Below are positions 16,427-18,552 of a stretch of DNA of 38,534 bases, in pieces (positions within the stretch are counted from its first letter, which is position 1; each line of letters opens with the position of its first letter). Position numbers and translations under genes: made by a program. This stretch comes from Jiangella asiatica. Lineage in GTDB: Bacteria; Actinomycetota; Actinomycetes; Jiangellales; Jiangellaceae. Below the pieces are notes generated by a model. That model was not told where the DNA came from, did not search any database, and saw only the letters and a list, made by a program, of their open reading frames with translations. The stretch covers positions 1 through 38,534 of the forward strand of contig NZ_SMKZ01000061.1 of NCBI RefSeq assembly GCF_004349065.1, in the 5' to 3' direction.

Positions 16427-16486
16427 ATTTGGTGGGGAGCCGCCAAGCGCCCACCGTGAAGTGAGGACTAAGCGTCCTTCCTACCG

Positions 16487-16570
16487 CTATCCGAGCAGGC
16501 CGGTAACGGTGCCCAGCAGCTCGTTCACGAGCGCCATGATGGTGTCCAGCAAGCCCGAAAGTGCATCCAC
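16487..16570 (-). CDS. Small hydrophobic peptide, 27 aa
   Basis: GTG 16570 has a clean AAGGAG ribosome site (16582-16577) and the frame ends in TAG at 16487. The peptide starts MDALSGLLDTIMALV and ends LLGTVTGLLG. It is almost wholly hydrophobic with three acidic residues, no basic residue and Gly-Leu-Leu repeats, and it would form one amphipathic or membrane-lying helix. It has its own candidate promoter (16685-16658) and a strong terminator (16426-16372), so it looks like a deliberate gene. I do not recognise the family. Phenol-soluble-modulin-like surfactant, type I toxin-like membrane peptide, or small membrane-protein regulator are possible by shape only. A hairpin can cover its ribosome site. 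Confidence 0.65.
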   Translation of the reverse strand: MDALSGLLDTIMALVNELLGTVTGLLG

Positions 16571-16657
16571 GACTGTCTCCTTCGTGACGAAGATCCTCGG
16601 TTGGAGACCTGCCTGGTCAAGCTCTTGGTCCGGACGACCGGGTAGGTCATGACAGTG

Positions 16658-16861: not shown

Positions 16862-16867
16862 TATGAT
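16862..16867 (+). promoter_or_regulatory. -10 box for a leaderless leader-peptide transcript
   Basis: TATGAT is a five-of-six match to the sigma-70 -10 box. It ends seven bases before ATG 16874, so transcription would start at or within a base of the start codon, giving a leaderless mRNA. The -35 region (about 16839-16844, CGTCGT) is poor, which suggests an activator or an extended contact. No Shine-Dalgarno sequence precedes the ATG, which fits leaderless translation. Confidence 0.55.
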
Positions 16868-16873
16868 GGCGAT

Positions 16874-16933
16874 ATGACCCAGCGTTCGCAGCAGATGATG
16901 CGCCCCCTCACGGGGCCGCTGAGCGTGCGCTGA
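16874..16933 (+). CDS. Methionine-rich attenuator leader peptide, 19 aa
   Basis: ATG 16874 to TGA 16933 encodes MTQRSQQMMRPLTGPLSVR. Two adjacent Met codons (16895-16900) lie immediately before a run of competing GC hairpins and an intrinsic terminator, the standard layout of ribosome-mediated attenuation. The downstream gene is a methionyl-tRNA synthetase, so the codon pair matches the regulated function. A ribosome waiting for Met-tRNA at these codons would shift the RNA into the read-through form. There is no ribosome site, and the -10 box suggests a leaderless start. The product is probably degraded and has no function of its own. Confidence 0.7.
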   Translation: MTQRSQQMMRPLTGPLSVR

Positions 16934-16978
16934 CACCGTCACCGACACACCCGAGCCCCTGCCGACGCGGGGGCTTTT
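16902..16978 (+). terminator. Transcription attenuator upstream of MetRS
   Basis: Four segments can be drawn. Segment 1 is GCCCC (16902-16906) and segment 2 is GGGGC (16912-16916). Segment 3 is AGCCCCTGC (16954-16962) and segment 4 is GCGGGGGCT (16967-16975), followed by TTTT. Pairing 3:4 gives a 9-bp stem with one G-U and a CGAC tetraloop, an intrinsic terminator. Pairing 1:2 leaves 3 free to form it. Pairing 2:3 (GGGGC with GCCCC) prevents it. Segment 1 begins one base after the tandem Met codons, so a stalled ribosome would mask it and favour 2:3. Confidence 0.7.
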
Positions 16979-17028
16979 CGTGTCTCTGGAGCTCCTCTCG
17001 TCACGGCATGGGCGAGAAGGAGACCATC

Positions 17029-18552
17029 ATGACCACCCGATCCCCCGACGGTCGCGTCTACGTCACGACCGCCATTCCCTACGTCAACGGCGACCCGCAC
17101 CTCGGCCACGCGCTGGAGCTCGTGCAGGCCGACGTGCTCGCCCGGCACGCCCGCGGTCGCGGCCGGCCGGTGCGGTTCCTCACCGGCACCGACGACAACG
17201 CGTTCAAGAACGTCACCGCGGCGCGCGCGGCCGGCGCGGACGTCCGCGAGTTCGTCGACGCCAACGCCGCCCGGTTCGCCGGGCTACGCGAGCCGCTGCG
17301 GCTGTCCTACGACGACTTCATCCGCACCGGCACCGACCCCCGGCACGCACCCGGCGTCCAGCTGCTGTGGCGGCGCATCGCCGCGAACGGCGACCTCTAC
17401 CGGCGTCGCTACGAAGGGCTGTACTGCGCCGGCTGCGAGCAGTTCTACACCGCCGGCGACCTCGTCGACGGCGCCTGCTCGGAGCACGGCGTCGCGCCGG
17501 AACGCATCAGCGAGGAGAACTGGTTCTTCCGGCTGTCCCGGTACACCGACTCGCTGCTGGACGCCCTGGAGTCCGGGCAAGTGCGGGTGTCGCCGCCGCA
17601 TCGCCGCAACGAGGTGCTGGCGTTCATCCGCGCCGGGCTCTCCGACATCAGCGTCTCGCGGTCGGCCGAGCGGGCCGGCGGCTGGGGCATCTCCGTCCCC
17701 GGCGACCCCACGCAGGTCGTCTACGTGTGGTGGGAGGCGCTGGCCAATTACGTGACGTCGCTGGGTTACGGGAGCGGGGGTGACGACGTCGTCGGCTTCC
17801 GCACGTGGTGGGCTGGGTCGGCCGAGCGGGTGCACGTCATCGGCAAGGGGATCGTGCGCTTCCACGCCGTGTACTGGCTGGCGCAACTGCTCTCGGCCGG
17901 GTTGCCGCTGCCGACGGCGATCGCCGTGCACGACTACCTCAGCGTCGACGGTGCCAAGATCTCCAAGAGCTCGGGCGGCACTGCCGACCCCGTCGACCTG
18001 GTCCGGCGCCACGGCGCGGACGCGGTGCGCTGGTGGCTGGTACGCGACGTCGCCCAGGTCGGCGACACCGACTTCACCGAGGACCGCCTGGTCACCAGGC
18101 ACGACCAGGACCTCGCCAACGGCCTGGGCAACCTCGTGCACCGCACGCTCGGCCTGGTGCACCGGTTCGGGGCCGGCGTGACGTCCGCACCGCCGCCGCG
18201 GAATCGGCTGGTCGAGGCCGCCGACGCGCTGCCGGACGCCGTCGACCGTGCACTCGAGGTCTATGACCTGCGCGCCGCCACCGGTGAGCTGTGCGCCGTC
18301 GTCGACCTCGGCAACCGCACCGTCGAGGCTGAGCGGCCGTGGGAACTGGCCCGCCGGTCCGCGGCCGGGGACGCCGAGGCGGCCGGCCGGCTGCGCGCCG
18401 CACTGGCCACACTCGTGCACGCCTGCAGGGTCGTCGCCGGCGAGCTGGCGCCGTTCGTACCGGACGGAGCCGAGCGGTTGAGCGAGCAGCTGGGCACGGC
18501 CGGGACGGTCCGGCAGCCGCGACCTGTCTTCGAGCGGCTGCGTGAGTCCTAG
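17029..18552 (+). CDS. metG: Methionyl-tRNA synthetase paralogue
   Basis: 507 aa, class I synthetase. ATG 17029 follows GAAGGAG. YVTTAIPYVNGDPHLGHALE carries the HIGH motif as HLGH (residues 24-27), and AKISKSSGG holds the KMSKS loop as KISKS (310-314). A zinc-knuckle-like insert reads CAGCEQFYTAGDLVDGACSE near residue 140. The anticodon-binding helical domain follows from about 360. It charges tRNA with methionine, or is a paralogue that does so under special conditions. The catalytic loop TGTDDNAFKN differs from the TGTDEHG of housekeeping actinobacterial MetRS. That suggests a divergent second copy, as in bacteria with an inhibitor-resistant MetRS. It is preceded by the Met leader/attenuator and followed by antiporter genes after 37 bp. 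Confidence 0.85.
   Translation: MTTRSPDGRVYVTTAIPYVNGDPHLGHALELVQADVLARHARGRGRPVRFLTGTDDNAFKNVTAARAAGADVREFVDANAARFAGLREPLRLSYDDFIRTGTDPRHAPGVQLLWRRIAANGDLYRRRYEGLYCAGCEQFYTAGDLVDGACSEHGVAPERISEENWFFRLSRYTDSLLDALESGQVRVSPPHRRNEVLAFIRAGLSDISVSRSAERAGGWGISVPGDPTQVVYVWWEALANYVTSLGYGSGGDDVVGFRTWWAGSAERVHVIGKGIVRFHAVYWLAQLLSAGLPLPTAIAVHDYLSVDGAKISKSSGGTADPVDLVRRHGADAVRWWLVRDVAQVGDTDFTEDRLVTRHDQDLANGLGNLVHRTLGLVHRFGAGVTSAPPPRNRLVEAADALPDAVDRALEVYDLRAATGELCAVVDLGNRTVEAERPWELARRSAAGDAEAAGRLRAALATLVHACRVVAGELAPFVPDGAERLSEQLGTAGTVRQPRPVFERLRES

Follow-up and report, generated by a model that had tools for sequence, protein, structure and literature searches.

The window, i.e. the whole stretch of DNA analysed here (38,534 nucleotides of contig NZ_SMKZ01000061.1), belongs to the genome of Jiangella asiatica (7.03 Mb, 134 contigs) and carries a gene for a methionyl-tRNA synthetase (MetRS) that is preceded by a short leader ORF with two adjacent Met codons and by several complementary segments. 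All elements named in a preliminary description of this DNA (TATGAT, a 19-codon ORF, ATG ATG, four segments and TTTT) were found in the sequence. The features of the locus are:

16862-16867, plus strand: -10 box TATGAT, found by sequence inspection and followed by six bases and then the leader start codon
16874-16933, plus strand: leader ORF of 19 codons plus stop (ATG at 16874, stop at 16931-16933), peptide MTQRSQQMMRPLTGPLSVR
16895-16900, plus strand: tandem Met codons 8 and 9 (ATG ATG), the proposed sensing site
16902-16906, plus strand: segment 1, GCCCC, partner of segment 2
16912-16916, plus strand: segment 2, GGGGC, partner of segment 1 or segment 3
16953-16962, plus strand: segment 3, GAGCCCCTGC, placed by folding, cross-species permutation and 3:4 covariation
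16967-16976, plus strand: segment 4, GCGGGGGCTT, 3' side of hairpin 3:4, which resembles a terminator
16975-16978, plus strand: run of four T, overlapping the end of segment 4
16987-17026, plus strand: hairpin 5:6 over the MetRS Shine-Dalgarno sequence (AAGGAG at 17017-17022), conserved by pairing
17029-18552, plus strand: MetRS gene, 507 amino acids, start codon at 17029 (TIGR00398 380 bits, cut-off 336)

The 109-nt leader of the window folds more stably than shuffled sequences (z -2.6; 3 of 200 shuffles were equally good). Between positions 16600 and 17050, a simple consensus scan called no sigma-70 promoter and no good -35 element was seen, and a standard scan called no T-rich terminator, the run in the window being four T. 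No Rfam family, and hence neither a T-box nor a SAM riboswitch, reached its gathering score in the window or in 11 related loci. Upstream of the leader, at about 16480-16600, a short reading on the minus strand ending in MDALSGLLDSIVALVNQLLGTVTGLLG and a conserved GGTGGGGAGCCGCCAAGCGCCCACC element are common to the Jiangella relatives (including L011 and L015).

Loci for comparison were collected from searches of the family (Jiangella, Haloactinopolyspora and Phytoactinopolyspora) and of the class, from named genome contigs, from two genomes found with a leader model and from plasmids. After removal of two duplicates (L025, L026), 61 loci of the MetRS lineage remained, and in 60 of these a short ORF containing internal Met codons lies upstream, with hairpins and then the MetRS gene coming after it. 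Among the lineage loci inspected, the sole exception is L030, a metagenome-assembled genome of the Pseudonocardiaceae; the leader is likewise absent before five more distant MetRS genes (L041-L045) and before 12 other MetRS genes. Leader-bearing loci occur in Jiangellaceae, Micromonosporaceae, Frankia, Actinomadura and Kibdelosporangium as well as in Streptomyces, Embleya and rhizobial plasmids, so that the arrangement recurs before MetRS in two phyla. Among 289 genomes of the Rhizobium strain's class, a search at E <= 1e-130 yielded that strain alone; the other rhizobial relatives were taken from plasmid records, from which eight close relatives were included and H4, H8, H9, H24 and H33 left out. 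One record, L033 (JOAA01000002.1, titled Rhodococcus rhodnii), may be misnamed, as it groups closely with Kibdelosporangium aridum and has a genome of 12.4 Mb.

A covariance model built on the clade A leaders gave 17 strong matches (E <= 4.5e-13) in 393 genomes of the class, all of them before MetRS genes of the window's lineage: 15 precede genes already known and the other two (L151, L152) precede further lineage members whose reading frames appear interrupted. Thirteen weak matches (L153-L165, E 2e-5 to 0.0016) were inspected and none leads into a MetRS gene in the stretch read; among 29 further weak matches, one lies antisense to a known leader (G006). In the genome of the window, the only match at E <= 0.01 is the locus itself, which, with the element recurring upstream of MetRS at 60 of the 61 loci, argues for more than chance. 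On a MetRS tree of 77 sequences (those below 380 amino acids, i.e. L023, L040, L043, L045 and L120, were left out), two changes suffice to explain the 58 leader-bearing rows, a number as low as in none of 500 shuffles, and L030 is placed inside the lineage without a leader. Leader and enzyme therefore appear, judging from the tree, to have been mostly inherited together.

The leader peptides differ widely: we read MRPHRQRMMRPFPGLLGVR in Micromonospora, MRKIVSNMMRPFPGPVSVH in Kibdelosporangium aridum, MTTSSGQVMMPRSRGR in Actinomadura, MTAQVMMTR in family f17, a GTG-started peptide ending in MMLMPMPSGLLRAS in the Frankia group and MNRSLANATMMMPRS on a Rhizobium plasmid. What stays constant across them are the Met codons (MMRP, MMPR, MMTR, MMLM, MMMPRS). 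All 57 distinct leaders contain an internal Met and 48 of them a tandem Met, the other nine having at least one; in total Met accounts for 135 of 1046 internal residues, and the ATG triplets number 135 in frame against 4 and 0 in the other two frames, counts that are partly selected because Met-containing ORFs were sought. The first base of a TANNNT box lies 13 or 12 nt upstream of the start codon, leaving a gap of 6-7 nt, in 44 of the 57 distinct leaders (leader starts were chosen in part by the -10 box), compared with six occurrences at all other positions of the 60-nt stretches upstream; in Micromonosporaceae this position is taken by CANNAT-like boxes. Most leaders thus look leaderless, the spacing of the box being as expected of leaderless transcripts, which supports what the preliminary description had proposed for the window. 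The distance from the first Met codon to segment 2 has a median of 17 nt and a standard deviation of 4.0 (42 sequences; range 14-30, the value of 14 being the minimum set by the mask), and the distances of segment 2 from the start and from the stop of the ORF have standard deviations of 9.8 and 10.6, respectively, in leaders of 9-28 codons.

The helices were assessed by covariation and by a permutation procedure. Among 20 sequences of clade A, 99% of the cells of helix 1:2 and 87% of those of helix 3:4 are paired, and their covariation scores were equalled by one (1:2) and none (3:4) of 500 shuffles. Both stay paired in relatives through compensatory changes, though in clade A the number of 1:2 pairs changed on both sides does not exceed that of shuffles (258/500). 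For helix 2:3, 88% of cells in fixed columns are paired and covariation is absent; in the Kibdelosporangium group its register seems to be shifted. Pairing of the outer arms of the leader ORF (CAGCG with CGCTG; 70% of cells paired) has no covariation support. Downstream of 3:4, the U run consists of the four T in the window, which the scan did not call; it is clear in the rhizobial relatives and there is none in the Kibdelosporangium group.

In the permutation procedure, the pairing of a sequence's own segments was compared with that of segments from other species over 5000 permutations, kinship being ignored. Across 28 sequences, foreign segments did as well in 0 (1:2), 80 (2:3), 0 (3:4), 4 (4:5) and 0 (5:6) permutations, compared with 3377 (2:4), 4934 (1:3) and 1419 (3:5) for control pairs. 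With a single sequence per clade (12 sequences), 2:3 was reached once in 5000 permutations and the control 3:5 was borderline (231/5000). Within clade A (13 sequences), 2:3 is not significant (1311/5000), 1:2 is marginal (257/5000), and 5:6 (0/5000) and 4:5 (42/5000) are retained; within a set of seven sequences of Actinomadura and f17, neither 2:3 (4371/5000) nor 4:5 (3551/5000) nor 5:6 is significant. When the RNA was folded with the region covered by a ribosome holding the first Met codon in its A site blocked, segment 3 paired upstream in 36 of 36 representatives. In the 28 sequences this upstream pairing comprises 235 positions, compared with a mean of 171 and a maximum of 215 among 300 shuffles. 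Taken one by one, few sequences are conclusive: only 7 of the 28 have a better fold than 95% of their shuffled versions. Taken together, a 2:3 antiterminator and a mutually exclusive 3:4 terminator are predicted at these loci, the former from folding and from pairing between clades. The trp/his-type interpretation, which the preliminary description had read from a single sequence and would have seen refuted had relatives not kept the Met codons and the hairpin pairs, is supported by the conserved leader, Met codons and helices.

Further downstream, we considered a six-segment cascade in which 4:5 pairing would free the MetRS Shine-Dalgarno sequence, and dropped it as a mechanism because freeing segment 4 does not open that sequence: in 16 clade A sequences its mean unpaired fractions in this comparison are 0.23 against 0.25 (higher in two, lower in one). 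A 4:5 signal across species (28 sequences, clade A) is present despite this, and the Actinomadura/f17 set has none.

The enzyme scores as a type 1 MetRS (4dlp group 344 bits and 1a8h 333 bits, versus 175 bits for 1qqt), following the assignment of solved MetRS enzymes to types 1 and 2 in the available text of PMC8165550. Its motif is GTDDNAFKN and that of the lineage mostly GTDDN[AS]xKN, compared with GTDEHG in the Jiangella housekeeping MetRS. The same GTDDN[AS]xKN is seen in L030 and L043, which have no leader, and the second MetRS of Kibdelosporangium reads GSDENSLKN. On contig C96, the genome of the window encodes another MetRS, which shares 40% identity with the first. MetRS genes of the C96 type (at least 84% identical) were found in 19 of the 20 family genomes searched, four of which (G015, G017, G018, G019) have no copy of the window's enzyme at E <= 1e-100, and the window MetRS is therefore an auxiliary copy in Jiangellaceae. 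The remaining one of the 20, G021 (g6; L117), has a different housekeeping MetRS with a 613-aa frame. At several loci the auxiliary MetRS looks interrupted or shortened while the leader is retained (L023 in G011, L151, L152, L034), as expected of a dispensable gene.

In a TIGR00398 search of 41 genomes, which could have overlooked a further MetRS with E above 1e-50 or one hidden in an assembly gap, 37 genomes hold a MetRS of the window's lineage and 23 of these at least one further MetRS match. In all 13 genomes of the Frankia group (f18/g40) and in G188, no match other than the enzyme of the window's lineage exceeds the cut-off. By these counts the MetRS under control of the element would be a spare one in most of the lineages tested and apparently the sole one in Frankia. 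The preliminary description had spoken of MetRS paralogues, which holds for most lineages, but the leader is not confined to paralogues, since it also stands before the only MetRS found in the Frankia group and in G188.

What comparison of the loci established is the leader ORF with its Met codons, the position of the -10 box, the helices, the spacing from Met codons to segment 2 and the association with a single MetRS lineage. On this basis we regard the element as real and conserved and, very probably, as a functional Met-codon attenuator for MetRS, and we are largely confident that it acts as a ribosome-mediated transcription attenuator sensing methionyl-tRNA. From the arrangement of the segments we infer the following sequence of events. 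Transcription would begin at the leader start codon or right beside it, with immediate initiation by a ribosome. With plentiful Met-tRNA, the ribosome would pass the Met codons and reach the stop codon, segments 3 and 4 would pair and RNA polymerase would terminate. Upon Met-tRNA shortage, the ribosome would stall on the Met codons and cover segment 1, segment 2 would capture segment 3, no terminator would form and MetRS would be transcribed. Scarcity of Met-tRNA should slow translation initiation on the leader as well, an effect that would work in favour of termination, and the antiterminator must win kinetically.

Three other explanations were weighed against methionyl-tRNA sensing. The first is a general translation-stress attenuator that senses any slowdown of the ribosome, for example by antibiotics, the Met codons merely favouring drug-specific stalling. 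Auxiliary synthetases can be resistance genes, and short upstream ORFs of this kind are described before resistance genes in the accessible portions of the literature; yet Met codons before the Met-charging enzyme are the very feature kept across otherwise very different leaders and all strong hits of the leader model fall before this MetRS, and we rate this explanation as improbable. To the same small degree we would credit translational control, in which the main task of the leader, acting through hairpin 5:6, would be to control how accessible the MetRS ribosome-binding site is. This hairpin covers the Shine-Dalgarno sequence and pairs better within than between species, and some 3:4 hairpins (Kibdelosporangium group) have no T run, but the Shine-Dalgarno sequence stays closed when segment 4 is freed and a clear T run follows 3:4 in the rhizobial relatives. 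Finally, a chance ORF beside an unrelated terminator, for which one may cite the modest z of the window's fold and the commonness of short ORFs, is hardly credible given the recurrence before MetRS in two phyla, the in-frame Met codons and the fixed place of the -10 box.

Transcription attenuation by methionyl-tRNA sensing, as preferred here, belongs to a mechanism class known for other amino acids. As in trp/his-type attenuators, a leader ORF is combined with overlapping helices 1:2, 2:3 and 3:4; here, in contrast, the sensed amino acid also starts translation and the leader is probably leaderless. Methionine supply is sensed by SAM riboswitches, T-boxes and repressors. T-box and SAM riboswitches likewise respond to the supply of an amino acid or methionine, at other genes, whereas the MetRS element, which matches no Rfam family, would work through a leader ORF. 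A close parallel is an auxiliary, antibiotic-resistant TrpRS gene of Streptomyces, which Vecchione and Sello reportedly placed under ribosome-mediated transcriptional attenuation in 2010: there too, a spare synthetase gene follows a leader peptide with many of its cognate codons, but the amino acid is tryptophan instead of methionine and the TrpRS is a resistance enzyme, a role that is hypothetical for the MetRS.

An attenuator or leader peptide is reported or predicted for trpS2 of S. avermitilis in the available text of PMC1262725, which also states that no conserved RNA structure was found before methionine operons of the genomes studied (Seliverstov 2005). In the accessible part of PMC8079986, leader peptides of S. 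lividans precede leuS, trpS, thrS, alaS and metN; like the leaders described here they are short, mostly stated to be leaderless and located before synthetase genes, and one is a predicted methionine leader. That leader, however, precedes the methionine importer gene metN, has scattered Met codons and is linked to termination called unclear, and none of the eight leaders listed there stands before a MetRS gene. The uORFC-8-2 motif before cysS of Rhodobacterales, read as ribosome-mediated attenuation in the available passages of PMC8632094, shares the tandem cognate codons in an upstream ORF before a synthetase gene, but concerns cysteine and one order of Alphaproteobacteria. Our search of open-licence papers (most subscription papers lie outside it) found no Met-codon attenuator on MetRS. 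The preliminary description, which knew of none, least of all a leaderless one, agrees with this search on the first point, but leaderless synthetase leaders and a predicted Met leader before metN have been published (PMC8079986).

What sets methionine apart is that translation of the sensor itself has to start with Met-tRNA, and the element thereby makes discrimination between shortage of elongator and of initiator Met-tRNA testable. More tentatively, leader and MetRS might form a mobile, self-regulated rescue cassette in which a codon-based sensor reads elongator Met-tRNA although Met also starts translation, the altered-motif MetRS withstands a natural MetRS inhibitor or a methionine analogue of some kind, and Frankia made the inducible enzyme its only MetRS; we think this scenario possible, though rather unlikely as a whole. 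The leader marks a MetRS lineage common to actinomycetes and rhizobial plasmids. It provides a sequence handle for inducible synthetases and may point to natural MetRS inhibitors as yet unknown.
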